From assembly GCF_011059185.1 (NCBI RefSeq), contig NZ_JAALFE010000010.1, forward strand, positions 1-64,000: DNA of 64,000 nt. Direction: 5' to 3'. Position numbers and translations under genes: made by a program. This stretch comes from Paragemmobacter kunshanensis (GTDB taxonomy: Bacteria; Pseudomonadota; Alphaproteobacteria; Rhodobacterales; Rhodobacteraceae). The stretch's first letter is position 1. Every line of letters begins with the position of its first letter. A model generated the notes under the pieces. The model searched no databases. It was not told the origin of the DNA and saw only the letters and a program-made list of their open reading frames with translations. Positions 1 to 27,486 of this stretch are shown here, one piece after another.

Positions 1-1
1 C

Positions 2-1692: not shown

Positions 1693-2025
1693 ATGAAATC
1701 CCGTACCAAAGTAGTTGTCATCGGCGGCGGCATCGCCGGTTGCTCGACGCTTTATCATCTCACCCAGGAGGGATGGACCGACGTCGTTCTGATCGAGAGG
1801 GATGAGCTGACCTCGGGCACGACATGGCATTCCGCCGCGCAGGTGACGAACTTTGGCGCGAACCAGACGATGGTGGGCCTGAAAAGCCACTCTATCGCGC
1901 TATACAAGAAATTGCGCGACGATCCGGAGTATCCGGTGGTAAACCGCTGCGCCTCGCTAAACCGCACCCGCGCCGTGATCTGCCGACACTGCCCAAGGTT
2001 CCGCCAGATCACCCGCCCCGCGTAG
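1693..2025 (+). pseudogene. Dimethylglycine dehydrogenase-like FAD oxidoreductase, N-terminal fragment
   Basis: The start at ATG 1693 is fixed by the Shine-Dalgarno CGGAGG at 1681-1686. The first about 82 residues are a DAO-family Rossmann N-terminus: VVVIGGGIAGCSTLYHL and then TSGTTWHSA, where the His of dimethylglycine/sarcosine dehydrogenases carries covalent FAD. After LRDDPEYPV (about 1938) the protein loses all resemblance to the family, because the DNA becomes the antisense of a phage head gene, and stops at 2025. Full-length relatives have 800 or more residues. The gene is thus disrupted at the left phage junction. Confidence 0.8.
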
Positions 2026-3248
2026 TTGCCCACAGGGCCAATCTGGCGCGTTTTCGGAGGCGTCCATGTCAAGCCGCCATCCCGGCTTATCTCAAGTTCC
2101 AGCGTGGCCGATTGAAAGCCCTGCCGGGGGAAGAGTTCGATCTGCCCCACGTTGAACCGCTGCCCGTCCTGATACAGCGTCTTGCTTGTCGCCTCTCGGA
2201 TCAGGGGCTGGTTGTCATCCGTGCCGATCTTGGCAAACCGGAACAACTGCGCATCGGATCGCCCGCAATACCACTCCCCGCGAAACTTGGCCGAACACGT
2301 CGCGGACCAAGCCTCCAGCGTCACCCCTTCCGCCCGCTCGTGCCATTCGCCCGTCGCCAGATCATACACCCAGGCCGGGCAATCCCGGAACGTGATGACG
2401 CAGAAGGTATGCCCCTCGTCCTCATAGGTGAAACATGCCTGCGGCTGGCAGTCCTTGATGGCCGTCTCTACGGGGGGAATGCTGATCGGCTGCAATGCCC
2501 CGGCCACGATATGCGCGCGGTTGTCATCTCCGACGAAAAAAGCCGCCCCCGGCAGTCGGGTAATCAGGTTGTGTGACTTCAAGCCAACATCAACCACGCC
2601 GCCCGCTTGCCGCTCGAATGCAGCCGCCCCTGCCCCGCCCGTCAGATACCAAACCTCGTGCGATGTTTCCTTGAACAGATACAACACGCCATTGATCGCG
2701 AAAGGCCGGATCAGGTTGTCATCGCGCCCATCTGCCGTGGAGAAGTTCAGCCCCGGCAGATCGCTTGCGTCGGCAATGTCGCTCCACTGGAACCGCCGCC
2801 CGTTCAACTCGGTGAGAACCGTGTAATTCCCGATGTAATCATGGCTGCCGAAGTCGCTGAAAGCCCCCGGCGTCGGGTTTGTCAGGCTCACTCCATCCCA
2901 CAGGTAATAGTCGCCGTTCGCCACCACGGTTACATCGCCGTTGTTCCCGGCAATCGTGGTGTTTTCGTCGTCCGCTATGGCCCCATGGCTGAGGTATCCG
3001 CCATCCGCTGCGATTTCCTGCAATACCTCGCCAGCCACGGCAAACAGCTTTCCGTCCACCTCTGACAGCGCCCGCGTAAACACGCCCGGAAGGGCGGAAA
3101 ACGGCTGCAAGCCCAAGACAGACTTGATCGCGTATTGCGCCCTGCCCCCGGCAACAATTGGTTCGGGATAGCAATTCACCAGCCGCGACGGGTTGGCCGC
3201 GATGTTATCGCTATCACGCGCGGCAGGGGCGAAGAATTGCAGTTGCAT
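1755..3248 (-). pseudogene. P22 gp10-like head/tail stabilisation protein, 3' end lost
   Basis: The protein starts MQLQFFAPAARDSDNIAANP, the standard opening of P22 gp10-like 'packaged DNA stabilisation' proteins, and continues as a beta-propeller-like repeat protein with the characteristic late motif GRVIWRNLGQCRQI near residue 420. In P22 this protein closes the portal channel after DNA packaging. About 437 residues are phage-derived (3248 down to about 1938). The final 60 codons are the antisense of the flavoprotein gene and cannot be native. The true protein probably ended only a little further on, so function may or may not survive. Confidence 0.75.
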
Positions 3249-3628
3249 CAGTAATACAGGCTCCGCGCCCCGGCGTCGGCTTCCTCGTCGGAAATCGCGC
3301 CGTCATCGTCCAGATCCCGCACGTCCTCGCGGTTGTCGCTGCGGATCGTCGCCATCAGCCTGCGCCAAGCCAGCCCGCGCGTTGTCGGGCGCGGAACGCT
3401 GTATTCCCCGGCCAGTTCCACCGCCAAGAGCATGCCAAGCGGCTGAAACGACATGGTGGGCGTCGTGTCCAGCGTCCACGAAATCGTGGCTTCATTGCCC
3501 AACTCGGCAAACAGGCTATCCAGCACGTCGCCGCCGTTGGCATATTGATCAGCCGTCAGCCCTTCATCCTCGGCTTTCACGCCAAGGATGCGAAAGGCCC
3601 GCTCGATCACTTCAAGCCGCGTCGCCAT
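3248..3628 (-). CDS. P22 gp4-like head completion / tail accessory protein
   Basis: 126 residues. The opening MATRLEVIERAFRILGV and the following conserved aspartate and glycine pattern are typical of the small proteins encoded between coat and gp10 in P22-like phages, which form the ring that extends the portal. The stop overlaps or abuts the ATG of the gp10-like gene and the start overlaps the 3612-3824 gene, so translation is probably coupled. Function is inferred from position and size. Confidence 0.55.
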   Translation of the reverse strand: MATRLEVIERAFRILGVKAEDEGLTADQYANGGDVLDSLFAELGNEATISWTLDTTPTMSFQPLGMLLAVELAGEYSVPRPTTRGLAWRRLMATIRSDNREDVRDLDDDGAISDEEADAGARSLYY

Positions 3629-3824
3629 CTTGCACCTTGCGCGGACGGCCCCGCTTGGGCTTTTCCTCTGAAAGTTCTGCGGGCTTTTCTTCCGTCAGAA
3701 CCTCGAAATTCGGGTTTGCCGCCACAACGGCGCGCAGGTGTTCCGGCACGTCAAACTCGCAGAACGGCGAGAGAGCAATGCCCTTCCAATCTCCGGCTGC
3801 GTTGTTGAGAAACTTGGCGCGCAT
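3612..3824 (-). CDS. Small phage structural-module protein, unknown
   Basis: 70 residues: a short N-terminal globular half (MRAKFLNNAAGDWKG) and a charged C-terminal tail rich in Lys, Arg and Glu (KPKRGRPRK). It overlaps the next gene by 17 bases. Similar small proteins with a basic RGRP tail are common next to head genes. I do not recognise a specific function. Confidence 0.55.
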   Translation of the reverse strand: MRAKFLNNAAGDWKGIALSPFCEFDVPEHLRAVVAANPNFEVLTEEKPAELSEEKPKRGRPRKVQDGDAA

Positions 3825-3875
3825 GGCGTCCCTCCATGGTGGAAGGGGGCAAGGTTTCCCCTGCCCCCGTCGCTA

Positions 3876-4352
3876 TCAGTCAACCGAATAGGCCAGCGTC
3901 AGGGTCAGCGTCCCGCCAGCGGCGGTAACGGCATCCTTCGTGGTGGCGATCAGATCGAAGAAACCGCCCGGATCGGACGTCTGGCCGGAAACGAATTCCC
4001 AAGCCATCTTGCCCGAGTTGGCGTGATCCTTGATCAGGCGCACATCGAAAGCAGATCCCGACAGGTCGATCCCGTCGTTCAGCGCGTCATCATCGGTGGT
4101 GATGTTCGAGGAAACCGCCTTGAACCCCAGATCAAGCGTCGGGGTGTTCGCGGTGGCGTCCAGGACGTCGCCAGCAATGCGCGACAGGCCGTGAATGCGC
4201 GCATTTGAGGGAATGCGAACAAACACGTATTCAGTCCCGGCGGCGACCGAAGTCCCCACCTCAACCGTGCTGTCGATGATCGTGGCCGCGCGCTCTGCCT
4301 TCACTTGCAGAGTGTCCAGCTTCACGATGGAACGGAGAGTTGCGTTAGGCAT
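3876..4352 (-). CDS. Phage head protein, possible decoration protein
   Basis: 158 residues, rich in Ser, Thr, Ala and Asp, with no signal peptide or membrane segment. It lies directly downstream of the coat gene, 10 bases away, a usual site for capsid decoration or stabilising proteins. The composition fits a beta-rich capsid surface protein, but the function is inferred from position only. Confidence 0.6.
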   Translation of the reverse strand: MPNATLRSIVKLDTLQVKAERAATIIDSTVEVGTSVAAGTEYVFVRIPSNARIHGLSRIAGDVLDATANTPTLDLGFKAVSSNITTDDDALNDGIDLSGSAFDVRLIKDHANSGKMAWEFVSGQTSDPGGFFDLIATTKDAVTAAGGTLTLTLAYSVD

Positions 4353-4362
4353 CTGATCCTCC

Positions 4363-5496
4363 TTAGACCGCAGCCGGGGCGCTATACCAGACGGACACCA
4401 TGCCGTGCTGGACGCCGTTGTAGATCAGCTTGGAAACGCCACGGCACTCCTCGATGGCAACGCCATATTCGAAGTCGTAGTCGGTTTCCTTCTTGACCCG
4501 CGAAGTCGGTTCTTGGCCCCAAGCCACGCCCAAAGCCTGAGCGCCGCAGAGAGCCGCCATCGACACATCCGAAGTCGAAGCGCCGACACCCGTAACGACG
4601 GGAATTTCCGGCACTTCGCGGATGATCACGCCGTCCCAGATCAGGTCGCCGTCCTGGAAGATCGGGTTGGATCCGACTTCACGCGGGCGGGCTTCCCGGT
4701 TGGCTGCGAGGATGGACGAGTCCCGCTTGAGATCGCGGAACCCACGCGAACCGACGAACATCACGAACCATTCACGGCCTTCCGCGTCATCCGTCTTGAA
4801 CGGGCGAATGTGCGGATCGGCTTCCTGCGCGCGCATCTTGGCAAGCGACACGATGCCAGCAGACATTTTGTCCGCCGAAGTGTCGATGTTCAGAAGCGAG
4901 TTGGCGTGGTTGTTCGAACTGTTGTTCGACACAGCCGCGCCGAACAGATAGCGGTCAGCGTTGGCAGCAAGGAACGAGTTCTTGTTGCCTTCCGTCTGCG
5001 CCAGATAGGCGGCAAGCGGCGTCAGCGTCGGCCCGCCCGCATCGGCAGATTTGCCTTGCAGGAACGACGTGCCGTCGACAGCCATGAAGCCGCAGATCAG
5101 GTCGTCGCGCAGGCTTTCGCCCGCCCAGGTTTTCAGCTGCATCCGTGCCGCGCGACGCAGGTCCATTTCGGTCCAATGCTCGTCGGGCTTCACGATCACC
5201 ACGCCGTTACGGTTCCAGTTCACCGTGATCGACTTGTTGAAGTTGCCAAGGGCTTCCTCGTTGCCGGACAGGCGCGAGGTGCCTTGCACACCGCCCGACT
5301 TGAGCCGGGTGATGAGGGGGATGTTGATGGTCTTGCCGCCCGCCGAAAGCTCGTATTTCGTCACGATAGGCATCATGGCATTGCCATCGCTCCGGCCCAT
5401 GTAGGGGCGGAAGCGGTTGTCGCGGACGTATTCCGCGAAGAACTGCGCATCCCACTTTGCGACGCGGGAGGCAGTATTGAGAGAGGTTTGTGCCAT
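4363..5496 (-). CDS. Major capsid (coat) protein
   Basis: 377 residues, resembling the phage capsid family that includes N4 gp56-like coats: opening MAQTSLNTASRVAKWDAQFFAEYVRD, then a segment of the type SAGGKTINIPLITRLKSGGV and NRNGVVIVKPDEHWTEMDLR, and a conserved YDFEYGVAIEECRGVSKL near the end. It sits between scaffold and decoration genes in the order expected for P22-like heads. It would form the HK97-fold icosahedral shell. No truncation is seen. Confidence 0.85.
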   Translation of the reverse strand: MAQTSLNTASRVAKWDAQFFAEYVRDNRFRPYMGRSDGNAMMPIVTKYELSAGGKTINIPLITRLKSGGVQGTSRLSGNEEALGNFNKSITVNWNRNGVVIVKPDEHWTEMDLRRAARMQLKTWAGESLRDDLICGFMAVDGTSFLQGKSADAGGPTLTPLAAYLAQTEGNKNSFLAANADRYLFGAAVSNNSSNNHANSLLNIDTSADKMSAGIVSLAKMRAQEADPHIRPFKTDDAEGREWFVMFVGSRGFRDLKRDSSILAANREARPREVGSNPIFQDGDLIWDGVIIREVPEIPVVTGVGASTSDVSMAALCGAQALGVAWGQEPTSRVKKETDYDFEYGVAIEECRGVSKLIYNGVQHGMVSVWYSAPAAV

Positions 5497-5524
5497 CTCT
5501 TACACTCCGTAGGGGTTGATGCGG

Positions 5525-6250
5525 TTACGAACCGAAGGCAGCGTCAAACGCTGAACCTTTGGCGCGCGGTTCACCTGCCTTGCCAGCCGCAGGCGCGGAC
5601 GCCAGCGAACCGGGAAGGCGGGGTTTCGGCTGAGCGGTTCCGCCAAGTTCAGCCATGATCTCTGCGCGGAGTTGTTCCTTGATGGCTTCCATTTGAGAAG
5701 CCTTCCACGCCTCGGGATCAGCGCCGATTTCCTCGGCCACCCGTTGGCGCTTGTAGAACTCCACCGCCGCGTGGAACGGCGACGGATGCTCCAGAAGTTG
5801 CTGCGAAAGATGCGGATGCTGGTCAAAGTAGGCATAAGCCGCCTTCACCTCTTCCGCGCCGAAATCTCGTTCGGCGAGGAACCGCGACTGTTGCAGCTTC
5901 AAGGCGGTGAATTGCGCCTGAAACTGGTTTCGCTCGTATTGCAGCCGCTGATCGGGATCCGTGAAGAAATCCGGGGCGGGCTGCGCCTTCTGTTTCGCTT
6001 CGATCTGTGCGCGCCATTGACGGAGTTCTTCCGCCTCGCGCTCGGCCTTCTGGCGGCGTTCCCGCTCGTCCAGCAACGCACTGATGGGGATTGCGCCCGG
6101 CTTTTCCGCTTCGACAGCCGCAGGCGGCGCGGCCTCTGGTTCGCCCTGGCCTTCGCCTTCCGCCTCGATCTCTTCCGCTTCGACAGCTTCGGAAACTTCG
6201 GCCTCGGGTTCGGGTTGTTCGTCGTCAAGGAATGCGAGTTTATCGCTCAT
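5525..6250 (-). CDS. Capsid scaffolding protein
   Basis: About 241 residues and strongly acidic at the N-terminus (a run of Glu and Ala over residues 8-50), followed by a long predicted coiled coil with many Arg, Glu and Gln (about 60-130) and a short C-terminal helix. This composition and its position between portal and coat identify a scaffold, which drives procapsid assembly and then exits. The ATG at 6250 is preferred over 6265 because GGGAG stands 8 bases before it. Confidence 0.75.
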   Translation of the reverse strand: MSDKLAFLDDEQPEPEAEVSEAVEAEEIEAEGEGQGEPEAAPPAAVEAEKPGAIPISALLDERERRQKAEREAEELRQWRAQIEAKQKAQPAPDFFTDPDQRLQYERNQFQAQFTALKLQQSRFLAERDFGAEEVKAAYAYFDQHPHLSQQLLEHPSPFHAAVEFYKRQRVAEEIGADPEAWKASQMEAIKEQLRAEIMAELGGTAQPKPRLPGSLASAPAAGKAGEPRAKGSAFDAAFGS

Positions 6251-6340
6251 CGTGTCGTCTCCCATGTCGTGGTGAGTTACGCATCGCCCTTGCCCCGGCG
6301 GCGGGGTTTGGTTGTCCGTCCAAACTGCGGTGATCGCCCG

Positions 6341-8122
6341 TTAGAACCCGGCGGCGGTATTCATCGGACGCACGACTTCCATCCGCGCGTCAAATTGCAT
6401 TTTGCCGATGGACGCCATGTCCTTGGCCGCAGCCGCTCTTGCGCGTTCTGCCTCGGCTTCCGTCTTGTCGATCTCGGCCACAGCCCCACGCTGCGCGATT
6501 TGTGCCTGCGCCTGCGCCATCTGCGCTTGCATGGCCTGCGCCTCGGGCGGCGGTTGCATCTTTTCCATGATCTTCCGCTTGTCGCGAATGTCGGCCACGT
6601 CGATCAGCACGTCAGGCGGGATTTGCACACCCTTCGCCGCCAGATCGGCCAGCTTGTCAAACTGTTCCGCCCGCAGAGAGGCATAATCCGGGGCCTGATC
6701 CACGAGGATATCCACGTCAATCTCGGCAATCGGGTTCATCATCTGCGGCCCATAAGGCCCCATCACCATCTGGTTGACGCCGACGAACTGCGCCGCCGCC
6801 TCGTCATCCGTGACGCGGATCCAGCGCGGTTCTTGCCAGAATTGCTTGATGCGGTGCCAGATGGCCCGATAGACCCGTTCCGTCCAGTCGCGCAGGCTGT
6901 CGTAAATCGGCGCAAGTTCGGCCAATCCGGCCTGTTGCTGCGCCATGATTGCCCGCCCGGATTGCTGCCCGGACAACTGGCCGAGAAGCGACGCATTCGG
7001 CCCCAACATGTCGATTTCCTGCTTGGCCTCTTGCAGCAGGTTGAACTGCCCCATCGTCATGTCAGTTGTGGGGATGATCTCGAAAGGCTTCATGCCCGTT
7101 TCTGGATCGAATGCAGCCGGATCGACTTCCACATGCCCGTCCGGCATCGCCAGTTGCCGCTTTACCTCAGCGACGTTCACCGCGCCTTTCATGCCCATAG
7201 TCTGACGATTGTTCAGCGCGTTCAACAGCTTGGAACGGCGCTTGTTGATCTCGTCCTGCATGGAGATCATATCGCGCACCACGCCATAGCGGCGGTTTTC
7301 ACGATCCACATAGCCCGACATGAGGATAATCGGGCAGGCTGGCTTGCCGTCCTCGATATACGGCGACACGTCGTTGTAGAGTTCGCCCTTCCCGGTGAAG
7401 ATCGCCAGATGCCATTGCCCGCCGCGCTTGTAATACATCTGCGCCACGCGGACACGGCGAAGCCGCTTGTCGGCCCATGCCATGCCTTCACGCTGCGGCC
7501 TGTCCTCGTATGTCTCGCCAGCCGTGCCATCGGCCCCGGTGTCAAGAATGGCTTCCAGATCGTCGCCCTGATAGAACTGGCTGGCGTATTCCATCGCCGC
7601 GTCCAAGCTCATCCATTTCAGGACGCCAAGATAGGCCGCATCCGAGAAATCCTTTTCCCGGCTGTGGGGATCGAAAAAGATTTCCTCCCACCGCAGGCGC
7701 TTCACGCAAACATCGAGTTGCCCGTTGTATTCCTCGGCGATGACTTCAACGCCGCCGTAGCCTTCCACAATCAGGTTCTCGAAGGCGTTGGATCGCTTCA
7801 CGTCCACGCGCTGGGTTTCCTCGACAAACCGCAGCGCCTTGGTTGCCAGATCGGCGGCTTCTTCGTCCTGCGGATTGCGCGGATAGGCGACGGGATCGAC
7901 ACGGCCACGCTGCTCAATGCCGATCATCGCGTCGATCTTCCGCTTGATGCGGTTGACTGTGATGATGGGCTGTTTGCGCTTTTTCAGGATTGCCTCTTCC
8001 TCGGCAGTCCATTGGAACCCGTCGTAGTAATCCCGATCACGCTCCGAAGCCTCGCGCGCGTCGCTGGTCAGATCGGTTGCCCGTTCCGCCATGCTTTTGA
8101 GTTGGGCGAGTTCAAGCATCAA
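6341..8122 (-). CDS. Portal protein, P22 type
   Basis: 593 residues, within the usual range for P22-like portals. Recognisable stretches are RDRDYYDGFQWTAEEEAIL near residue 30, QPIITVNRIKRKIDAMIGIE near 55, and the long C-terminal helical part rich in Ala, Gln and Met (from about 530). Twelve copies form the DNA entry channel at one capsid vertex and dock the terminase. The ATG overlaps the terminase stop (ATGA), so the two are translationally coupled. Confidence 0.9.
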   Translation of the reverse strand: MMLELAQLKSMAERATDLTSDAREASERDRDYYDGFQWTAEEEAILKKRKQPIITVNRIKRKIDAMIGIEQRGRVDPVAYPRNPQDEEAADLATKALRFVEETQRVDVKRSNAFENLIVEGYGGVEVIAEEYNGQLDVCVKRLRWEEIFFDPHSREKDFSDAAYLGVLKWMSLDAAMEYASQFYQGDDLEAILDTGADGTAGETYEDRPQREGMAWADKRLRRVRVAQMYYKRGGQWHLAIFTGKGELYNDVSPYIEDGKPACPIILMSGYVDRENRRYGVVRDMISMQDEINKRRSKLLNALNNRQTMGMKGAVNVAEVKRQLAMPDGHVEVDPAAFDPETGMKPFEIIPTTDMTMGQFNLLQEAKQEIDMLGPNASLLGQLSGQQSGRAIMAQQQAGLAELAPIYDSLRDWTERVYRAIWHRIKQFWQEPRWIRVTDDEAAAQFVGVNQMVMGPYGPQMMNPIAEIDVDILVDQAPDYASLRAEQFDKLADLAAKGVQIPPDVLIDVADIRDKRKIMEKMQPPPEAQAMQAQMAQAQAQIAQRGAVAEIDKTEAEAERARAAAAKDMASIGKMQFDARMEVVRPMNTAAGF

Positions 8123-9384
8123 ACAACCTTCCAGTCGTCAGGTTCTCGGGCTTCGGCGCGGTAATCCGGCGGGCGCTGCAAGAGGTCATCGTCCAGCACA
8201 ACGTCCATCGGGATCAGCTTGCCCTTGCGGTGCAGGCGCTCCACGGCATAACGCAGGGCGTCGATCCCGTGGTTATTGGCGTCCTCGGGGACGGGCAGGA
8301 TGGCCCCGGTGCGCTTGTCGATCTCATAGGCGTATGATCCGAGTTCCCGGATCAGGTTAATGCAGCGCGGGTTCACCACGATATCCAGGCCCTGCAAGAA
8401 GCTGATGCCGTCCTCTATCGAACCTTTGCCCTTGCGCGCGCCCCTCATGCGGGGGAAGCCGTGGCGTTGCAGATAGTCTATCGTCTCAGGCCGGGCGCTG
8501 TCAGCGTTGCACGGCCACTTGTGCAACTCAGGAATGCGGGCGAGGAACACAGGCAGGGCGTCGGTAGGAACACCCACCTCGAAAGCCTCGTGATCAACAT
8601 ACAGCGTCTTATTCTCGATCAGGCAGCACCGCAAAGCCGCTGTGGGATCGTTGGCAAAGCCGAAGTCAACGCCGCCATACCAGATCACGCGGGCGGGCGG
8701 CTCAACCTCGCCCACGCGCCAGTTGCGGAAGATGCGGGCTTCCGAAAGCGACTGATACTTGCCTTCCCAAACATGGGCATACTTGTCCGGGTTGCGTTCC
8801 CTGTCGCGGTTCATGTCCTCGCGCAGGGCTTCGGGAAAATACGGGTTGTCGCTCCAGTTCGCCAGCACCACAACGGCGTTGTCCCGTTCGTCGCCGCGCA
8901 GCATGGCGTCAATCGGATCCGTCTCGCTAACCGGGTTCCAGCTTGCCCAAATTTCGCTGCCGTCCTTGCGGATTGTCGGGGTGAGCAGATCCAGGCTCAT
9001 CTGGCTGATCGTCTGCGCTTCCTCAATCCATGCCACATCAAAGCCCTCCAGAGACTTGATGCTTGCGGCTGTGTGGTTTTGCAGGCCACGAAAGATGCAG
9101 AGCGAACCGTTGCGGCCCCGGATTTCCTGATCGGTGATAGTGAAGAAGGCAGACAGCCCGAGTTGGGCAATCTTGTCCTCGATCAGTTGCTTGACGCTGT
9201 CCTTGATGCTGTTCTGGATTTCGCGGACGCAGACCACGCGGAAATTCGGCTTTGTCGCCATGAGTGCGACGGCATAGCCCGCGAAGAAATGCGACTTGCC
9301 AGAACCCCGGCCACCATATGCACCCTTGTATCGCGCAGGCTGTAGAAGGGGCGCGAATACAGCTGGTATATCAAGCTGCGCCAT
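8119..9384 (-). CDS. Terminase large subunit
   Basis: 421 residues. The N-terminal ATPase has Walker A GGRGSGKS (residues 24-31) and Walker B VAWIEEAQ (about 117-124); the C-terminal nuclease domain opens with GGVDFGFANDPTA (about 245) and ends with the acidic NNHGIDALRYA motif (about 375). It pumps DNA into the procapsid and cuts concatemers. It overlaps the small-subunit gene by 14 bases and the portal gene by 4. The catalytic motifs are intact, so this protein should be functional even though the phage is not. Confidence 0.93.
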   Translation of the reverse strand: MAQLDIPAVFAPLLQPARYKGAYGGRGSGKSHFFAGYAVALMATKPNFRVVCVREIQNSIKDSVKQLIEDKIAQLGLSAFFTITDQEIRGRNGSLCIFRGLQNHTAASIKSLEGFDVAWIEEAQTISQMSLDLLTPTIRKDGSEIWASWNPVSETDPIDAMLRGDERDNAVVVLANWSDNPYFPEALREDMNRDRERNPDKYAHVWEGKYQSLSEARIFRNWRVGEVEPPARVIWYGGVDFGFANDPTAALRCCLIENKTLYVDHEAFEVGVPTDALPVFLARIPELHKWPCNADSARPETIDYLQRHGFPRMRGARKGKGSIEDGISFLQGLDIVVNPRCINLIRELGSYAYEIDKRTGAILPVPEDANNHGIDALRYAVERLHRKGKLIPMDVVLDDDLLQRPPDYRAEAREPDDWKVV

Positions 9385-9962: not shown

Positions 9963-10070
9963 GACGGCCTCGCGATGTGTTTGGAAAAGCTTAGGACTTT
10001 GCGCCCGACGCTATTTCAGCCGGGGCCGCGCACCTGACCGCCGCCTAGGGCTGGTGCAGGCAATGGGCGC

Positions 10071-17118: not shown

Positions 17119-17199
17119 AAGTTAGGAAATTTCTTGACTACTTGCAACTGGAAATTTCCGCGTTGAAGGCTTAGGTTGGGAAAGGATAAATCCTATCCC
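17119..17199. promoter_or_regulatory. Divergent switch region with two GGAAATTTCC operators
   Basis: Between the two divergent regulators lie GGAAATTTCT (17125-17134, in the spacer of the leftward promoter) and GGAAATTTCC (17150-17159, two bases upstream of its -35), centres 25 bases apart. Rightward, TTGAAG (17163-17168) and GATAAA (17185-17190), 16 bases apart, could be the repressor promoter. A 10-base inverted repeat with one mismatch (17178-17187 and 17190-17199) covers its -10 and ends at the repressor ATG. The arrangement resembles a lambdoid OR region. Confidence 0.65.
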
Positions 17200-17526
17200 A
17201 TGGAGCGGACGCAGATCATGTCTATCGTGGCCCGGAACCTTAGCGCGCTGATGGAGGAGCGGGGGACTAACCCCTTCGAACTCGCCAAGCGCGCCGGGGT
17301 GAACCAAACGGCCATCTACGACATCATGAAGGGCAAGAGCCAAAACCCGCGCGTGGACACCCTCCACAAGATCGCCGTGGAAGGCTTGGGCGTTCCGCTT
17401 TCAGCCCTTGTTTCAGAACCAAGCGATATTGAACTTAATCGCCAGCTTGTTGAGGTTTTCGGGCTTTTGCCGGAAATTGATCGGGCGCGCATTCTGACAA
17501 TGGCGCGCGCACTCTTGCCGAACTAA
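17200..17526 (+). CDS. CI-like XRE-family phage repressor (short form)
   Basis: 108 residues from ATG 17200 (ATG 17218 is an alternative). The N-terminal XRE helix-turn-helix is clear: NLSALMEERGTNPFELAKRAGVNQTAIYDIMKGKSQNPRVDTLHKIA. A short helical C-terminus follows (about 70-108). It lacks the S24 auto-cleavage peptidase domain of classical CI, so SOS induction by self-cleavage is not expected. It is divergent from the Cro-type gene and probably binds the four GGAAATTTCC sites. Confidence 0.75.
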   Translation: MERTQIMSIVARNLSALMEERGTNPFELAKRAGVNQTAIYDIMKGKSQNPRVDTLHKIAVEGLGVPLSALVSEPSDIELNRQLVEVFGLLPEIDRARILTMARALLPN

Positions 17527-17724: not shown

Positions 17725-17750
17725 TGTTCCTCTAACGAATGGAGGAACCG

Positions 17751-18115: not shown

Positions 18116-18276
18116 TGACTGCCCGTGAATACCTTCGCAACACCGCGCTGGCCGACATGGTTTACGCGCGCGGCGAATACCATAGCTGCCGCCAGCGCGG
18201 CCTGCGGGTGATGACGGAGTATTACCGCCGCGAAATGGTGCGGGCATACATGGTTCTGCGGGGGCTGCGGAAATGA
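18115..18276 (+). CDS. 53-residue basic phage protein
   Basis: Helical and rich in Arg, Tyr and Met (MTAREYLRNTALADMVYARG; ending MVLRGLRK). Start shares a base with the preceding stop and the end overlaps the ERF gene by 4 bases. The chain of overlaps supports translation. No family recognised. Confidence 0.5.
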   Translation: MTAREYLRNTALADMVYARGEYHSCRQRGLRVMTEYYRREMVRAYMVLRGLRK

Positions 18277-18830
18277 GCGACGCAATCAAAGCGCTGGTGA
18301 AGGCCCAGAAGGAAATGGGCGCTGTCATCAAGAACACGACGAACCCGCACCTGAAAAGCAAGTATGCCGATCTTGGCGCGGTTCTGGACGCTTGCCAATC
18401 GGCGCTGCATGGCAACGGCTTTGCCATCATGCAGCCGAGCGGCAAGGACGAGTTCGGCCAGTTCGTGGATACCATCTTGGCCCACGAAAGCGGCGAGAGG
18501 CTGTCCAGCCGCGTCTATCTGGTGATCGGCAAACAGGACATGCAGGGCGTTGGTTCTGCCATCACCTATGCGCGCCGCTACGGGCTGCTGGGCATGACTG
18601 GCCTTGCCCCTGAGGACGACGACGGGGAAGCGACAAAAGCGCCGAAGCGCCAGGCTGCCGCCGATCCCGAAGCCCTCGCCATCGCCTGCGAAAGCCTCGC
18701 CAACGCCGACAGCGTGGAAGCCCTCAACGCCATCTGGCTGGATCTTCCCCCGGCTGTGAAGGCCGACGCCTCAGCGCTGGAAACCGCCAAGAAACGCAAA
18801 ACCCAACTGACTGCAAAGGAAGCGGCATGA
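18273..18830 (+). CDS. ERF-family single-strand annealing recombinase
   Basis: 185 residues. The ERF core is visible: LVKAQKEMGAVIKNTTNPHLKSKYADLGAVLDAC (8-41), then GNGFAIMQPS and VGSAITYARRYGLLGMTGLAPEDDD (about 92-116), the most conserved ERF block. The C-terminal 60 residues are a variable helical tail. ERF proteins anneal complementary strands in phage recombination, usually with an SSB, which follows here with a 4-base overlap. No exonuclease partner is seen. Confidence 0.88.
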   Translation: MSDAIKALVKAQKEMGAVIKNTTNPHLKSKYADLGAVLDACQSALHGNGFAIMQPSGKDEFGQFVDTILAHESGERLSSRVYLVIGKQDMQGVGSAITYARRYGLLGMTGLAPEDDDGEATKAPKRQAAADPEALAIACESLANADSVEALNAIWLDLPPAVKADASALETAKKRKTQLTAKEAA

Positions 18831-19243
18831 AATCCCTGACAATCGCGGGCGGCATCGGGAAAGATGCTGTAACCCGCACCACGCAACAAGGCGACAAGGT
18901 TACGGGCTTCTCCGTGGGCGTTACCGAAGGCTTCGGAGACAGCAAGCGCACCCTTTGGTTCGATTGCAGCCTGTGGGGTTCGCGCGGCGAAAAGCTGGCG
19001 CAATACCTCACCAAGGGGGCGCGTGTCGTTGTCTCTGGCGACATGTCCACGCGCGAACATGATGGGAAAACATACCTCACCCTGCGCGCTGCCGAAGTCA
19101 CCCTGATGGGCGGCAATGATCGCCGCGACGACGGGCAATCCAACACCGCCCGCGCTGCGGATCGCGCCCAACGGCCCACAGGCGGCGCACCTGCTGGTGC
19201 CTACATGGACGACGAGATCCCCTTCGCCCCGGAGTGGCGCTGA
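18827..19243 (+). CDS. ssb: Phage single-stranded DNA-binding protein
   Basis: 138 residues. The OB fold covers about 1-100 (MKSLTIAGGIGKDAVTRTT, FDCSLWGSRGEKLAQYLTKGARVVVSGDMS), followed by a short linker and the acidic tip DDEIPF, here extended by APEWR so that the tip is not terminal. In host SSBs this tip recruits repair proteins and must be C-terminal, so the extension is unusual. Partner of the ERF recombinase. Confidence 0.85.
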   Translation: MKSLTIAGGIGKDAVTRTTQQGDKVTGFSVGVTEGFGDSKRTLWFDCSLWGSRGEKLAQYLTKGARVVVSGDMSTREHDGKTYLTLRAAEVTLMGGNDRRDDGQSNTARAADRAQRPTGGAPAGAYMDDEIPFAPEWR

Positions 19244-22776: not shown

Positions 22777-23419
22777 CCCCTTCGCCGCCATGCTGGATGG
22801 GGTGCAGCGCCGTGTCATCGAGGACGGTGGCGATGCGCTGTATCACGGCAAGCGCACAACCTACCTGCCAGAAACCGAAGTCCTCGCCTCCCTCGCCGCC
22901 GCCGTGCCTGCCGATCTGGCAGAGGCGGGGAAGGTGCTGGAAGGCGTGACGCCGGGGCGCGTGGTGCAGTTTCACCCGTCATTCTGCAAGGAGGCAGAAG
23001 GCGCTCCATTCAGTGAATGGGACTCAAGTCACGATCTTTCTGTCATCCAGCCAGACGGCAAGCGTTACCGAATTGGTTCGATGCGCCATGCCAATGATGC
23101 AACGTTCTTCCAATGGTGCCGCGAAGGCGTCCCGGCCCTCATCGCCCGCATCGCCGCGCAGGAGGCGCAGATCGATGATGCAAAAGACTACGCCGAGACA
23201 TGCAACAGCCTTATGCGAAAAGCGCAAAGGGATCATGAAGCCGCAGAAACCGCCCTCGCCGCGTCTCAGGCCCGCGTGGCGAAGCTGGTGGCGGCGTTGA
23301 AGCGGTGGGAACACAGTGGATGCCCCGATTGCGGTGGAGACTGCGCCAGTGCAAATCCGCCCGTTTCTCTTTGCATCATGCGCGAAACCCGCGCCGCCAT
23401 CACGGAGGCGACCCAATGA
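22766..23419 (+). CDS. Coiled-coil phage protein, second copy of a duplicated gene
   Basis: 217 residues. Residues 3-53 almost repeat those of the 20788 gene. The middle (about 58-125) has a distinct domain (VVQFHPSFCKEAEGAPFSEW, then CREGVPALIARIAAQEA). The C-terminus again is a coiled coil, with an inserted CPDCGGDC zinc-like knot near residue 190 and the shared end ETRAAITEA. Suggests modular growth by recombination between paralogues. Confidence 0.6.
   Translation: MTANPFAAMLDGVQRRVIEDGGDALYHGKRTTYLPETEVLASLAAAVPADLAEAGKVLEGVTPGRVVQFHPSFCKEAEGAPFSEWDSSHDLSVIQPDGKRYRIGSMRHANDATFFQWCREGVPALIARIAAQEAQIDDAKDYAETCNSLMRKAQRDHEAAETALAASQARVAKLVAALKRWEHSGCPDCGGDCASANPPVSLCIMRETRAAITEATQ
22779..22928 (+). 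repeat. Direct repeat, copy 2 of about 150 bases
   Basis: Copy of 20800-20955 with a few substitutions. The two copies are in the same orientation, so recombination between them would remove about 2 kb with eight small genes. Confidence 0.8.
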
Positions 23420-23937
23420 CCCTGATCGACAAGGCCGAGGCGCTGGCAAAGTGCAAGGCAATTGCAGAAGAAGCACGGACCTACGGCATGCCGCAGATGG
23501 CAATGGGGGCATTTGCCTGCATGGAAGCCGTTGACGCCCTCGCCCCCACGTACGCCGCACATGTTAACGAAACGCCGAAAAGCGAACACGACGGCGCGGA
23601 CGTGTTAACCGCCGCACAGGCGCGCTCACGCTGCCCCTATGGCGCGACAGGCGACGACTGCTGCGGCGGGTATTGCAGCATGGATGATGACCAGGAAGGA
23701 GGTGATGACCTTGACCGACGGTTACGGTCGCATGAGACAAGCCCCGGTGTAACAGCCGGGGCGGACGACGCACAGGCGCGGGAGGCGGCGGCCGAGGCCA
23801 TGGCTGCACTGTCATGGGCCAAGGCGAACCTGCAAGCCCTGTCATGCCGCGCCGGGAACGAAGGCGCTGAATTCCCCATTGTTGACCGCGCGCTGGCGTC
23901 ATTGCGCCTCGCCCTGATCGGGGAGACGAGCGAATGA
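23416..23937 (+). CDS. Phage early protein, possibly a fusion of two small genes
   Basis: 173 residues. An N-terminal helical domain (MTLIDKAEALAKCKAIAEEA) and a cysteine-rich stretch (CPYGATGDDCCGGYC, about 74-88), an acidic linker, then a helical C-terminus (AAAEAMAALSWAKANLQAL). At 23696-23706 the DNA contains a perfect 11-base match to the anti-Shine-Dalgarno, out of keeping with a pure coding stretch, so this may be a joined pair of ancestral genes. Confidence 0.5.
   Translation: MTLIDKAEALAKCKAIAEEARTYGMPQMAMGAFACMEAVDALAPTYAAHVNETPKSEHDGADVLTAAQARSRCPYGATGDDCCGGYCSMDDDQEGGDDLDRRLRSHETSPGVTAGADDAQAREAAAEAMAALSWAKANLQALSCRAGNEGAEFPIVDRALASLRLALIGETSE
23696..23762 (+). other. Perfect ribosome-binding site, mini-ORF and hairpin inside a gene
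   Basis: AAGGAGGTGAT (23696-23706) complements 11 bases of the 16S 3' end. A mini-ORF could start at TTG 23711 (8-base spacing) or ATG 23705 (too close) and ends at TAA 23750-23752. The stop lies in the loop of a 7-base-pair hairpin (GCCCCGG 23741-23747, CCGGGGC 23756-23762). All is embedded in another frame of the 23416 gene. Confidence 0.45.
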
Positions 23938-24101
23938 ATGACGTGTCCCTGCAAGCCGTGCTGAAACAAACCCGCGAAGATGCGCTGCGTGAGGCGGCTG
24001 CTGCTGTGCGCGCCAGATACATTGGCGACAACAACCGCGAGGATCAGGAAGTGTTGAGATGCGAAGCGGCAATCCTCGCCATGATCGGAGAACGCACATG
24101 A
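23934..24101 (+). CDS. 55-residue helical phage protein
   Basis: MNDVSLQAVLKQTREDALRE continuing to CEAAILAMIGERT. Its ATG and TGA overlap neighbours by 4 bases. Helical and acidic/basic mixed. No family recognised. Confidence 0.45.
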   Translation: MNDVSLQAVLKQTREDALREAAAAVRARYIGDNNREDQEVLRCEAAILAMIGERT

Positions 24102-24316
24102 GCCACGATTGGGGATCCCTGCGCCGTGTTGCGGCCGATGAACGCAGCCCTGCCGCTCTCGGCCCCTTCACGCCCTGGCTATGCGAGTATCAGGGCCATG
24201 ACGGCCTCTACTGCATCGTTCTGCACGGCACCGACCCGGAACAAGTTTGGCAGGCCAATGTGTGCAAGCTGCCGGGGCTGCGGATCATCGGTATTCATTG
24301 GGAGGCCCGCACATGA
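24098..24316 (+). CDS. 72-residue phage protein, unknown
   Basis: MSHDWGSLRRVAADERSPAA, then a strand-rich segment with Trp and Cys (WLCEYQGHDGLYCIVLHGTD). Small alpha/beta protein; coupled on both sides. No family recognised. Confidence 0.45.
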   Translation: MSHDWGSLRRVAADERSPAALGPFTPWLCEYQGHDGLYCIVLHGTDPEQVWQANVCKLPGLRIIGIHWEART

Positions 24317-24594
24317 GCCTGAGCAAGCTGATAGAGGCGGTGGCGGTCCACAACAAGCGCGCGGGAACGGCCCCGGCTGGTGCGGTCTACATCGGTCGCG
24401 GATCGGCATGGGGCAACCCCTTCGTGATCGGCAAGGACGGAACGCGGGATGAAGTCTGCGACCGCTTCGAGCGGGAAGTTCTGCCGACGCTGGACCTTGA
24501 GCCGTTGCGCGGAAAGCATCTGGTCTGCTGGTGCAAGCCAGCCCGGTGCCATGGTGACGCCATCCTCCGCGCGCTGGAACAGGAGGGGCGGTGA
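24313..24594 (+). CDS. DUF4326 protein
   Basis: 93 residues. YIGRGSAWGNPFVIGKDGTR (26-45) and LRGKHLVCWCKPARCHGDAIL (about 65-85) are the two signature blocks of DUF4326, a small family common in phages, with conserved Gly-rich loop, Asn and a CxC/CH cluster that may bind metal. Biochemical role not established. Confidence 0.8.
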   Translation: MSLSKLIEAVAVHNKRAGTAPAGAVYIGRGSAWGNPFVIGKDGTRDEVCDRFEREVLPTLDLEPLRGKHLVCWCKPARCHGDAILRALEQEGR

Positions 24595-24719
24595 TGGGTG
24601 ACGTGGCAATTATCGGCATCTTTGCGGCGGGCGTTGCATTTGGGGTCATTGCAACGCTGATTTACTGGCCGTGGGTGGAGCCGCGCATCCTGCCCGACAG
24701 CGAGGCCCGCGATGACTAG
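24594..24719 (+). CDS. 41-residue membrane microprotein
   Basis: One span from the start (VAIIGIFAAGVAFGVIATLI) then a short acidic cytoplasmic or periplasmic tail. Start shares a base with the preceding stop; the end overlaps the HTH gene by 8 bases. Confidence 0.5.
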   Translation: MGDVAIIGIFAAGVAFGVIATLIYWPWVEPRILPDSEARDD

Positions 24720-24912
24720 CCCCCTTGCCGTGAAGGCGCAGACAGCGGCGGCGATGCTTGACATGCCGCCGAAGGATTTCATGCGGCTGGTGGAATGTGG
24801 AGCCTTGCCGCCGCCTGTCAGGATCGGGAAGTTTGAACGGTGGCGGGTGGAACAACTTAACGCAATCATTCGCGGCGATGCTGCGAAGCCAGATGAGGGG
24901 TTTGAACTGTGA
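24712..24912 (+). CDS. AlpA/excisionase-like helix-turn-helix protein
   Basis: 66 residues. VKAQTAAAMLDMPPKDFMRLVECGALPPPVRIGKFERWRVEQLNAII has the MerR-like order of a recombination directionality factor: HTH, then a G-x-x-RW wing. Located four genes before the integrase on the same strand, so it is a good candidate for Xis. Confidence 0.65.
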   Translation: MTSPLAVKAQTAAAMLDMPPKDFMRLVECGALPPPVRIGKFERWRVEQLNAIIRGDAAKPDEGFEL

Positions 24913-25325
24913 GTGACGGGAAAAGGCCACTTAACCTTGGCGACTTTGACCTACCAGGCCTTGATCTGCCCAAGGATGCTTTGCAGTTGATGTATATGAT
25001 CCGCGACTATTTGCGGTCACAGGTTGATCATGGGTCAAGCATGGATACAGGCGGCGGCCTTGGATGTGCGGATCTTTGGGTAACGTTTGATGGAAAAGAA
25101 TACACCGTCACCGTGAAAGGCGGCGGTTCCGAAAAGGCACATGCCGACCGCATGGAGGAACTGACGCTTATCCAAAACATTATGGCGCGCGGCGTAGAAC
25201 AGGCCAAGTCAGAAACTGACAAGGCCCGCATCGCTGCTCTTCGAAATGTATTGAGAATGATATTGGAGGCGCAAAGCATTGAGGATGCCAAACGTTTCGC
25301 GGAAGAAGCTATTGAGGATATATGA
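24909..25325 (+). CDS. Phage protein, unknown
   Basis: 138 residues from GTG 24909, which overlaps the preceding TGA (GTGA). An N-terminal segment, LWVTFDGKEYTVTVKGG in the middle, and a long C-terminal helix (RMEELTLIQNIMARGVEQAK). Lower GC than its neighbours. No family recognised. Confidence 0.5.
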   Translation: MSDGKRPLNLGDFDLPGLDLPKDALQLMYMIRDYLRSQVDHGSSMDTGGGLGCADLWVTFDGKEYTVTVKGGGSEKAHADRMEELTLIQNIMARGVEQAKSETDKARIAALRNVLRMILEAQSIEDAKRFAEEAIEDI

Positions 25326-25420
25326 TGACCCCGCCCCGCCCCCGCATAACCAAGCCGCGCCTTGTCTGGCGGCTGCGCGGTGGCGTCTGGACACCGTGCC
25401 ATCGCGTGGAGGACATATGA
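25322..25420 (+). CDS. 32-residue basic phage peptide
   Basis: MMTPPRPRITKPRLVWRLRG and VWTPCHRVEDI: Pro/Arg-rich. Overlaps the stop before and the ATG after, both by 4 bases. Support rests on the coupling only. Confidence 0.4.
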   Translation: MMTPPRPRITKPRLVWRLRGGVWTPCHRVEDI

Positions 25421-25581
25421 CTAGCATCATTCGCCCCGATGCCTTGCGCCGTATGGTGGCCGAATGGGTCACGGCAGGCTGCACGGTTGAGATAGAGCCG
25501 GATGGCAAGATCCGCGTGACCCCGCCCGCCAATGTGCAGCGCGGGCCGGATCCTGACCTGATTGATTGGGGGCGCAAGTGA
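25417..25581 (+). CDS. 54-residue phage protein upstream of integrase
   Basis: MTSIIRPDALRRMVAEWVTAG, then TVEIEPDGKIRVTPP and an acidic end. The pattern 'A-x-G-x-x-V-E-I-x-P-D-G' is typical of small proteins that precede integrases in alphaproteobacterial prophages. Overlaps the integrase start by 4 bases. Confidence 0.5.
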   Translation: MTSIIRPDALRRMVAEWVTAGCTVEIEPDGKIRVTPPANVQRGPDPDLIDWGRK

Positions 25582-26558
25582 AGCGCAGTCTTCCGGCTTT
25601 CGTGTATCCCAAGGGCAAGCGGGGCTATCTATATTTCGTCAGGCCAGGAACGTGTCAGCGCATTCACGCCGCCCCCGGAACAGCAGAGTTTTACGCCGAA
25701 TACACCCGACTGTTGCGGGGCCGCATCGTTACGCCAAAGCAGACTATTTCCAAGCTGATCGCCAGCTATCGCCAATCGCGCGGGTGGGCAAAGCTGGCAT
25801 TCAACACTCGCAAATCATATGAGCGCAGCCTCGCCTATTTTGAGAAGTCAGCAGGCAATGTTGATCCGGCCACATTGCAGCGCGTCCACATCATTCAAAT
25901 GCAGAAGGCACTTTCTGACAAGCCGACCGACGCTAACCGCAAGATCGGGGCGCTGTCTGTGCTACTGGAACACGCAATTGATATTGGCTGGATGAAGGAT
26001 AACCCGGCAAAGGGCGTCAAGAGCCTGCCCGCGACGGGCAAGGTCCGCAAGCCGTGGCCTGCTGATCTGATCGCAGCCTTTCGCGCCACTGCAACGGGCC
26101 GCACGGCGCTTCTGTTCGAGTTGCTCCTAGGCACAGGGCAACGGATCAATGACGTGCTTGCGCTGCGCTGGTCCGACATGGACGGCGACGGCTTTACGAT
26201 CAAGCAAGGCAAGACCAAGCGGGAATTGTTCATCCCCCTTACCGATCGGTTGCGCGCTGTGCTGGACGCCACGCCCAAGCGGTCGCTGTTCATCGTGTGC
26301 CAGGATAACGGCAGGCCCGTGGGCTATAACTTGGCGTGGAAAGACATTCGCGAGGTCAGGGAGAAGATCGGCGCGCAGGAATACGACATCCACGCGCTGC
26401 GCCATGCTGCGGCGTCAGAAATTGCCAGCATCCCCGGCCTAACCTCTGAGCATGTCATGGCGATAACCGGGCATAGCGCGGTGGAAATGGTGCGCCTGTA
26501 TGCCGGGAAGGCGATGCAGAGGGCCAGAGCTAAAGAAGCACAGGAGAAACGGAAATGA
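25578..26558 (+). CDS. int: Tyrosine recombinase (phage integrase)
   Basis: 326 residues from GTG 25578, which overlaps the preceding stop. An N-terminal arm domain (KRSLPAFVYPKGKRGYLYFV), a SAM-like core-binding domain (about 50-150), and a catalytic domain with Arg in GTGQRINDVLALRW (about R189), HALRH (about H272-R275), GH in ITGHSAVEM (about H299) and the nucleophile Tyr in VRLYAGKA (about Y308). All catalytic residues are present, so it should be active. It is the next-to-last phage gene, near the right boundary as expected for an attachment-site-linked integrase. Confidence 0.92.
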   Translation: MKRSLPAFVYPKGKRGYLYFVRPGTCQRIHAAPGTAEFYAEYTRLLRGRIVTPKQTISKLIASYRQSRGWAKLAFNTRKSYERSLAYFEKSAGNVDPATLQRVHIIQMQKALSDKPTDANRKIGALSVLLEHAIDIGWMKDNPAKGVKSLPATGKVRKPWPADLIAAFRATATGRTALLFELLLGTGQRINDVLALRWSDMDGDGFTIKQGKTKRELFIPLTDRLRAVLDATPKRSLFIVCQDNGRPVGYNLAWKDIREVREKIGAQEYDIHALRHAAASEIASIPGLTSEHVMAITGHSAVEMVRLYAGKAMQRARAKEAQEKRK

Positions 26559-26884
26559 CTATGAAAGTTTTGTTGCGGTCAGAAATTTGCCAACAAGCGC
26601 CGGAACGTTGGGCGCAACAGTATCGGAACACTAGTGACGAACATAAGGCCCGAATAACTGAACGTCTCTTGGCGCTTTCTCCACAGGATCGGACGCCAGA
26701 GAAGATTGACCAAATTATCGGAAACACAAGTTGGACGAGGAACGTGTGCGACGAATGCGGAGAGAACCATGATCTTCTTATCATGATCGGCGAAGAGCCT
26801 GACTATGATGCCAGGTGGGTAGAACTGTGCGCGGGGTGCCTTCTGGCGGCTACAAAGGTTTTGGAACAAACGGCGGCTAAATAG
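26555..26884 (+). CDS. Last phage gene, small zinc-ribbon-like protein
   Basis: 109 residues with CDECGENHD (about 66-74) and CAGC (about 93-96), a probable four-cysteine zinc site, and a helical N-terminus. Overlaps the integrase by 4 bases. Lower GC than the rest of the operon. Its end lies 68 bases from the ctrA junction. Confidence 0.5.
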
Positions 26885-27486
26885 AGAACTTTGAAACCGC
26901 GTTGAAACGGAAACATAGGCGCATTGATTTTGTTGGATTTTTTGCGCCTAGAAAGATGGTTCAGGAACATCTCCTTGGTCAGCGTCGTGCCCTTGCGCAG
27001 GCTGAGGAGTTCCAGGATCTGATACTCCTTGCCGGTCAGATGCACGCTCTTGCCATCCACATCGACGGATTTGGCATCAAGGTTCACATTCACCCGCCCC
27101 GTCCGGATCACCGATTGCGCATGCCCCTTGGACCGGCGGATGATCGCGTGGATCCGCGCGATCAGCTCTTCGCGGTGGAAGGGTTTGGTCAGGTAATCAT
27201 CCGCGCCAAAGCCAAAGCCGCGGATCTTGTTGTCGGTATCGTCCGACCCTGACAGGATCAGGATCGGCGTCTCGATCCGGGCCAGCCGCAACTGGCGCAG
27301 AACCTCATGCCCGCTCATGTCGGGAAGGTTCAGGTCCAGCAGGATCAGGTCGTAATCGTAGAGTTTCGCCAGATCGATGCCGTCTTCGCCCAGATCGGTG
27401 CAATAGACGTTCAGATTGGCATGTGTCAGCATCAATTCGATGCTCCGCGACGTCGCGGGATCGTCTTCAACCAGAAGTACTCGCAT
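26803..27486 (-). pseudogene. ctrA: ctrA, cell-cycle response regulator with replaced C-terminus
   Basis: The first 178 residues are classic CtrA: receiver with phospho-acceptor D51 ([10 protein letters not shown]) and K101, then the start of the OmpR-type winged helix ([29 protein letters not shown]). Native CtrA would continue YGG-x-DEPE and reach about 235-238 residues with the recognition helix and wing. Here, from about 26952, the frame reads through phage sequence for about 49 unrelated residues. DNA binding should be lost. CtrA is not essential in Rhodobacterales but controls motility and gene-transfer-agent genes there. Confidence 0.85.
26916..26950. repeat. Perfect 8-base inverted repeat at the phage right end
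   Basis: TAGGCGCA (26916-26923) and TGCGCCTA (26943-26950) are separated by 19 AT-rich bases and end directly at the ctrA junction. It could be an integrase core or arm site, or a terminator for the integrase operon (a T-run lies inside the loop side). Confidence 0.5.

Follow-up and report, generated by a model that had tools for sequence, protein, structure and literature searches.

A prophage inserted at an attachment site inside ctrA, with an IS1380-linked host segment at its other border

Introduction

Some prophages lie in regulatory or virulence genes. One of them, the comK phage of Listeria, divides its gene at an exact core. The hlb phage of S. aureus, as described under the name of active lysogeny, splits its gene in the same way, and precise excision would restore it; active lysogeny involves regulated excision. 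Paracoccus phage vB_PkoS_Pkon1 (MK291442), an active siphovirus whose genome is complete, and prophage vB_PpaP_PD15 have their att site in the gene of an OmpR-family regulator, which in the account given in PMC6536676 is disrupted and not restored. The Pkon1 core, GTTTCTCAA(G/C)CAT in its record and in PMC6536676, reads F-L-N-H in frame. ISEcp1 and other IS1380-family elements, as described in PMC2887853, have an IS1380 transposase, generate 5-bp target duplications and move adjacent DNA by means of a substitute right end. In the description of PMC6363796, CtrA of Rhodobacter capsulatus is needed for production and release of the gene transfer agent RcGTA and is not essential, while PMC10589892 describes deletion of ctrA in R. 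capsulatus as conferring resistance to phage Jorvik.

The locus described here lies in a 64,000-nucleotide stretch of Paragemmobacter kunshanensis DNA (the window), which begins contig C2 (NZ_JAALFE010000010.1). Its prophage has a tyrosine integrase in the same clade as that of Pkon1 (55% identity), and its core fits the Pkon1 core, lies at the F-L-N-H codons and is duplicated at both prophage ends. Unlike Pkon1, it has a podovirus-like head module (terminase, portal and gp10), with no middle block in view. Like the prophages of active lysogeny, it precisely interrupts a regulatory gene, but the present copy looks defective. The window also contains an IS1380-family element that resembles ISEcp1 in its transposase, its 5-bp duplication and the adjacent DNA moved with it, but differs in carrying fragments of host genes (MFS, LysR and flavoprotein) and in meeting the phage without a duplication. 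The coordinates of all features are given in Table 1.

Table 1. Features of the window, with strand and supporting matches
Feature	Position	Strand	Evidence
IS1380-family insertion sequence, right end; inverted repeat GGGGAATGTCGG ending at 146	1..146	+	1671-bp element from C66 and window
MFS-transporter gene 5' region carried with IS; substitute right end at 552	147..552	+	PF06779
Target duplication TTAAC (5 bp) of IS+MFS unit	553..557	.	Identical to flank of IS left end, start of C35
LysR-family regulator gene, 5' end removed by IS+MFS unit	558..1499	+	PF00126, PF03466
FAD-dependent oxidoreductase (DMGDH-like) gene, 5' part	1669..1937	+	PF01266; intact continuation on C47
Host/phage junction, not att site	1937..1938	.	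C47 overlap and open frame; no matching 5-bp duplication
gp10-like head closure protein gene, final codons missing	1938..3248	-	phrog_578; 86% identical to L055
Major head protein gene	4363..5496	-	phrog_334
Portal protein gene	6341..8122	-	phrog_156
Terminase large subunit gene	8119..9384	-	phrog_3717, phrog_2; 55% to Xanthomonas phage PBR31
Cro/C1-type HTH protein gene (probable repressor)	17176..17526	+	PF13443
ERF recombinase and single-strand-binding protein genes	18273..19243	+	PF04404, PF00436
Tyrosine integrase gene, ctrA-targeting clade	25566..26558	+	PF00589, phrog_1; 55% to Pkon1 integrase; tree
ctrA 5' part, codons 1-178	26953..27486	-	NF045991 CtrA model 1-178 of 224; PF00486 1-34 of 77; C23 match
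Attachment core TCCTGAACCA, integrase-side att site within ctrA	26957..26966	-	Same 10 bp at C23 junction

Results

The attachment site in ctrA

The right border of the prophage is a site-specific attachment site inside ctrA, the gene of CtrA, a response regulator that governs motility and gene transfer as a master regulator. The match to CtrA ceases at residue 178, at window position 26953, and since the protein is cut there its score against the NCBIfam model (NF045991) is 323 bits, below the cut-off of 350. The core corresponds to ctrA codons 174-177 and occurs once on its strand within the window. The same 10 bp are found at a second junction, on contig C23, where the 3' part of ctrA is fused to the opposite phage arm, which encodes a tail fibre and a GIY-YIG-like protein. 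When the two flanks are joined across the core, they give an in-frame CtrA of 239 residues, 233 of which are identical to those of a same-genus CtrA. A search of the genome found no second close ctrA, the next best match being at most 41% identical. Since the 3' part of ctrA lies on C23 with the opposite arm and the same core, ctrA is the one host gene interrupted through prophage integration.

The original prediction held that two host genes are truncated at the prophage borders and that the remainder of the phage disappeared in a deletion after integration, together with the 3' part of ctrA and the host sequence as far as the flavoprotein gene. Both truncations are present in the sequence, the flavoprotein match ending at 1937/1938, and the searches indeed failed to locate the phage middle. 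However, the 3' part of ctrA survives, and an exact overlap of 77 nt leads from the flavoprotein gene to its in-frame continuation on contig C47, so that such a deletion is extremely improbable.

The fusion protein encoded at the right border would keep the receiver domain and lack the C-terminal half of the DNA-binding domain. Because this half is missing, the lysogen should be without CtrA activity, and hence without the motility and GTA release that go with it, unless the phage excises. The full CtrA site, TTAAN7TTAA, is absent from the window.

The IS1380-family element

Contig C2 starts inside an IS1380-family element whose transposase scores 387.5 bits against the NF033539 IS1380 model (cut-off 180) and also matches PF13701. 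The right end of this element is carried by 16 contig ends. When the 5-bp flanks of its left and right ends are compared, 9 of 16 pair at offset 0, while the mean at 299 other offsets is 0.44 and the maximum 3. In its native context the MFS frame runs on at the beginning of contig C32, with a 77-nt overlap corresponding to window positions 476-552. Joining the flanks at TTAAC, which removes the IS and the MFS region, restores a LysR start in frame, MSRRATSKDLNLKW, which resembles that of the paralogue on contig C53. The IS and 406 bp of the MFS region are thus shown to be one transposition unit, which entered the LysR gene and duplicated TTAAC there; like ISEcp1, the element can mobilise DNA next to it.

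The rightward forks at 552, 905 and 1937 start from one IS end. There are three continuations at 552, two at 905 and two at 1937; the fork at 905 leads to contig C55, and no 5-bp duplication was found at that junction either. These multiple continuations would be expected if the culture were mixed, most cells keeping the native IS-MFS-LysR-flavoprotein order and a subpopulation having the IS-linked copy in the prophage. Duplicated copies within one genome give the same forks without heterogeneity, however, and we consider a mixed population quite improbable. A pairing of contig C45 with the end of C32 through ATAAA was set aside, because contig C30 also begins with ATAAA and has a longer open frame with C45.

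The phage genes

The head module stops within the gp10-like gene, as predicted, and the match to phrog_578, in which residues 2-436 align with 5-460 of 486, confirms it. The protein is about 8 residues shorter than its relative in IMG/VR contig 3300012667_000787 (L055). No middle phage genes were found when proteins of relatives served as queries, without a positive control, in two protein searches of the whole genome and in a local scan that covered 83 sequences; of these 83, 35 are partly or wholly N, where a missing piece could hide. The L055 middle proteins that were tried have no match in the genome. Tail-block proteins of L055 and PBR31 have no local match except for the C-terminal part of an endolysin on contig C62. 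We read C62 as part of a siphovirus-like tail region that includes an endolysin and probably belongs to another prophage, and did not take it as the missing middle. Mel-JY03 has about 1% of the query in common, at 92% identity.

The left border

The left border is not an integration scar. It is an internal junction, with an IS1380-linked host segment (window positions 1-1937) meeting the phage at 1937/1938. The content of this segment (an IS end, an MFS piece, a LysR gene and the 5' end of the flavoprotein gene) is not phage-like. The overlap with the end of C47 covers window positions 1861-1937, and beyond it the flavoprotein frame is open. The junction does not have the 5-bp duplication of an ISEcp1-like unit: its 5-mer, GGTAA, is absent among 32 flanks of IS left ends, as are, by eye, the 5-mers shifted by 1-4 bases. 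Contig C23 stops at an IS of the same type, at the left end of the element, and none of the 16 right ends offers a partner for its flank, CCTAG. The far end of contig C35 was considered as a continuation of the phage, since its IS flank ends in GTAAA, the same as positions 1939-1943, but its open frame is unlike the gp10 end of L055.

The main rival explanation is that the ctrA site is real and that the junction at 1937/1938 is an assembly misjoin, made at a k=77 fork through chimeric or minority reads, with the true prophage complete elsewhere. An exact 77-nt overlap is what an unresolved fork leaves behind, the target duplication is absent, and some small contigs read as N. Against this, no rival neighbour of the phage side from 1938 onward was found among 112 readable contig ends of 234 or in an own-genome search that scored 40 of 103 first-look candidates, although a missing piece could hide among the remaining ends. 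A further own-genome search, used for the forks, scored 40 of 50 such candidates. The middle genes are also absent from the searches described above, and the C23 phage arm and the start of C2 sit at opposite ends of the same type of IS, a collinearity that is explained if they belong together. A misjoin is rather unlikely, even though it deserves more weight than the other alternatives.

The two borders thus do differ in kind. The left end, which had been read as a phage end in a broken host gene, is indeed truncated, but it is a piece of host DNA beside an IS. The suspicion that the locus has undergone a rearrangement or has been affected by an assembly problem was also right; the proposed chimeric assembly survives as a less likely reading for the left junction alone.

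Discussion

We consider it probable that a phage with a Pkon1-type integrase integrated in ctrA, and that the left border is the end of an IS1380-linked host segment that replaced the phage middle. In such a history, a temperate phage would have integrated site-specifically at the F-L-N-H codons, leaving the 5' part of ctrA next to the integrase and the 3' part next to the tail-fibre/GIY-YIG arm. A longer IS copy, comprising the IS and 1.79 kb and ending in the flavoprotein gene, may have replaced the phage middle from gp10 to the tail fibre; alternatively, a later deletion inside such a copy may have done so. The IS that ends C23 and the IS that starts C2 would be the same copy, giving a defective but collinear prophage. 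Since neither 1937/1938 nor the C23 flank has a 5-bp duplication partner, we infer the C23-IS-C2 adjacency from collinearity and exclusion. For draft genomes, the lesson is that what looks like a second broken gene beside a prophage can turn out to be either an IS-linked segment or a k-mer fork.

The interruption of ctrA is not confined to this genome. The gene is split within residues 175-178 beside related integrases in Paracoccus denitrificans, P. methylarcula, P. mutanolyticus, Limimaricola hongkongensis and a metagenomic provirus. The 5' half adjoins the integrase at loci L198, L199, L212, L213 and L244, and the 3' side of ctrA is present at L221. The tblastn query for the 5' half ended at residue 178 by design, and the ends of the halves were read from translations. 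Two further loci, L219 and L220, stop 3 and 30 bases past the integrase, short of any att-site information. In the integrase tree, which left out L213 (integrase matched only in part) and took in L208 (7 stops and a very long branch), the window integrase falls in a 10-row clade with support of 100/99 that contains the tree's ctrA-flanked rows. IMG/VR 2901664502_000008 is identical to the present assembly, including the left border, and was not counted as independent evidence. Since the same cut occurs beside related integrases in several bacteria and the Pkon1 core fits, ctrA is, by these comparisons, a recurrent phage target, and its use would remove the DNA-binding half of CtrA.

The use of ctrA as an integration target appears to be unrecognised in the open-licence papers searched. 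The term "ctrA" has 0 occurrences in the main text of the Pkon1/PD15 paper (PMC6536676), and "ctra" is absent from the main text of PMC8224337, for which the search index counts one occurrence.

By splitting ctrA time after time, a phage lineage would silence the GTA particles of its host and exclude rivals that depend on CtrA, which would tie together lysogeny, gene transfer and phage competition; named strains, P. denitrificans DSM 413 among them, contain related cases. We suggest, tentatively and with some doubt, that ctrA may be a dedicated integration hotspot in Rhodobacteraceae, used by unrelated temperate phages with one integrase type that cuts in the DNA-binding domain of CtrA, and that lysogeny may act as a reversible off-switch for motility and GTA release, excluding CtrA-dependent rival phages until the gene is made whole by excision. 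The GTA_TIM family has four matches in the present genome, which may therefore possess a GTA that could be silenced.

The split ctrA gene

The open frame that runs leftward from 27486, at the right border of the prophage, matches the Rhodobacterales CtrA model over positions 1-178 of 224 with 323 bits, a score below the cut-off of 350 because the frame is cut. It ends within the C-terminal DNA-binding domain, where the match to PF00486 covers model positions 1-34 of 77 and scores 24.7 bits, under the cut-off of 26.2. No second close CtrA was found in the genome, where the next-best protein matches reach at most 41% identity. CtrA 92-97% identical to the query is present in 16 of 18 same-genus genomes, and the other two, G004 and G012, have distant matches only.

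The draft genome (117 contigs, 99.98% complete by estimate) carries the window as bases 1-64000 of contig C2, which has 159,058 bases. The original prediction was that a deletion or rearrangement had removed the 3' part of ctrA, with a chimeric assembly as the alternative; this part is present on contig C23 at 140697-142205, where a genome search using the downstream portion of the ctrA region from a relative matched it at 82% identity. The sequence TCCTGAACCA, which is ctrA codons 174-177, occurs at both ctrA junctions, at 26957-26966 of the window and on C23, and joining the flanks at this core gives a 239-residue CtrA identical at 233 of 239 positions to that of a same-genus relative. The split has the anatomy of site-specific integration into a single gene. 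The phage region, 1930-26960, had been placed between two broken genes; both are indeed cut in the contig, but only ctrA has this anatomy. In G024, of the same family, ctrA keeps residues 118-178 and its 3' part (L042, 8314-8809), while the 5' part is replaced near a contig end by a putatively transposase-like sequence, perhaps another route to ctrA loss.

Features of the window, of contig C23 and of related loci
Feature	Location	Remark
IS1380-family element, right end	window 1-146	element of 1,671 bp
MFS gene, 5' part	406 bases directly after the IS	native continuation starts contig C32
LysR gene	window from 553	followed by the flavoprotein gene
Integrase gene	window 25566-26558	55% identical to Paracoccus phage Pkon1 integrase
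ctrA, window	 	5' half leaves CtrA after residue 178 (from translation)
GIY-YIG-like protein	C23, beside ctrA 3' part	22.1 bits, just below 22.6 cut-off
Tail-fibre fragment	C23, beside ctrA 3' part	 
L198, P. denitrificans DSM 413	 	5' half leaves CtrA after residue 177 (from translation)
L199, P. methylarcula	 	5' half leaves CtrA after residue 177 (from translation)
L213, P. mutanolyticus	 	leaves CtrA after residue 177 (from translation); integrase only partly matched
L212, Limimaricola hongkongensis	 	5' half leaves CtrA after residue 175 (from translation)
L221	4001-5252	integrase adjoins ctrA 3' half, not 5' half: opposite orientation

Recurrence of integrases at ctrA

Integration into this regulator is already in print for two Paracoccus phages, under the name 'OmpR family'. 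The Pkon1 record places the att site within an OmpR-family regulator gene. The core given in the Pkon1 paper (PMC6536676) is GTTTCTCAA(G/C)CAT; according to that paper, the podovirus-type prophage PD15, whose recombinase is 92.7% similar to that of Pkon1, has the same kind of target, and the name ctrA is absent from its main text. No paper in the open-licence literature searched was found to name the regulator as ctrA, to note its recurrence in different genera or to describe an IS-scrambled member.

An integrase scan of 84,980 species genomes gives 21 loci with relatives, and two IMG/VR scans give 2 and 10, the 2 included in the 10. Among the 32 loci checked (29 new scan loci, Pkon1, L056 and L057), a ctrA half lies within the retrieved stretch in six: L198, L199, L212, L213, L221 and L056, the last being the present assembly itself and not an independent case. 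The L198 integrase, which adjoins ctrA, is 93% identical to that of Pkon1. At 5040-5160 of L212 the cut ctrA reads FLKRI versus FLNHL, which may point to a core of fewer than 10 bp. With CtrA as query, IMG/VR yields 19 loci (L231-L249), including this assembly's own copy (L233); in L244, ctrA residues 86-178 adjoin an integrase 58% identical to that of the window. Thirteen of the 19 align over at least 218 residues, two at only 35% and 28% identity, and by their length these are possibly phage-borne CtrA homologues.

In a tree of 22 integrases, midpoint-rooted on the long L208 branch, the window integrase belongs to a 10-row clade (support 100/99). Six of its rows are flanked by ctrA (window, L198, L199, L212, L221 and L244); the clade also holds Pkon1, with its recorded att site, L057, which carries TCCTCAACCACCT right of the integrase, and L219 and L220, whose sequences end too soon past the integrase to show ctrA. 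Of the 12 rows outside the clade, none shows ctrA in the retrieved stretch; in 8 of them that stretch includes 4,000 bases to the right of the integrase.

The left border and the IS1380-family element

Contig C47 terminates in 77 bases that are the exact reverse complement of window 1861-1937, and past 1937 the flavoprotein frame stays open into C47; the end of this gene, which had been supposed lost, is thus present. Exact overlaps of 77 bases arise at contig ends where de Bruijn assembly with k = 77 meets a fork, and such sharing occurs at many other contig ends here. The IS aside, matching contig ends all exit the window rightwards and none enters from the left, with further forks at 905, leading to C55, and at 1937, where the path continues into C47 or the phage. 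On the phage side, neither a genome search using window 1000-3000 (which scored 40 of 103 candidates) nor a comparison with 112 readable contig ends out of 234 revealed a competing neighbour.

The IS has at least 32 left ends, 31 of them at contig ends and the other within C66 (40 of 60 candidates scored), and canonical right ends number 16 in the visible assembly, which suggests that substitute right ends are often used. The element makes 5-bp duplications on insertion: at offset 0 a left-flank partner exists for 9 of the 16 right flanks, whereas the 299 other offsets average 0.44 matches and never exceed 3. TTAAC both starts the LysR part and adjoins the left IS end that lies at the beginning of C35. 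Joined there, the two flanks give an empty site in frame, with a LysR start behind AGGAGG and an N-terminal pattern matching the C53 paralogue. The duplication and the rebuilt start indicate that the IS and the 406 bp moved as one unit, just as ISEcp1, also of the IS1380 family, moves adjacent DNA (PMC2887853).

Probable loss of the prophage middle

On C23 the phage arm stops precisely where the left end of an IS of this type begins, and C2 starts within the right end of such an element. In the order C23, IS, window 1-1937, phage, both ctrA halves are correctly oriented and the arms are collinear, the tail fibre lying downstream of gp10, the head-closure gene at 1938. Two whole-genome protein searches with middle-gene proteins of L055, a related IMG/VR contig, run without a positive control, found no phage middle genes. 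A local search of 83 sequences (35 partly or wholly N) with 26 proteins of L055 and Xanthomonas phage PBR31 matched, outside the window head genes, only an endolysin on C62. Because the arms are collinear across the IS and the middle genes were not found, it is rather probable that an IS-linked host segment replaced the phage middle. The absence of a 5-bp duplication at 1937/1938 and at the C55 junction, and of a partner for the C23 flank CCTAG, counts against such a replacement, as do the runs of N in 35 of the 83 sequences searched; that 1937/1938 is instead an assembly misjoin seems less likely.

C62 (L072) holds a second phage tail/lysis fragment, between an IS left end and another repeat common to four contig ends. 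In the C-terminal part, its endolysin shares 64% identity with the L055 endolysin; considered as the missing middle, C62 was rejected, since it looks like another phage. Short stretches of window 24558-25405 are 92% DNA-identical to 'Microcystis phage' Mel-JY03, recorded from a cyanobacterial host.

Predicted consequences for the host

The split CtrA retains its receiver. With the C-terminal half of the DNA-binding domain gone, it should be inactive at CtrA promoters. In R. capsulatus, CtrA is required for GTA production and release and dispensable for life (PMC6363796), and deleting ctrA prevents infection with phage Jorvik (PMC10589892). By analogy, a prophage at ctrA would be predicted to shut down motility and GTA release and to keep out phages that depend on CtrA, an effect that would be reversible if excision is possible. 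This prophage has an uninterrupted integrase frame and two intact cores; the copy is probably defective, because its middle block was not found. The GTA_TIM family (PF13547) has four matches in this genome, on C36, C48, C59 and C74; a GTA cluster and GTA-like prophages may coexist in it.
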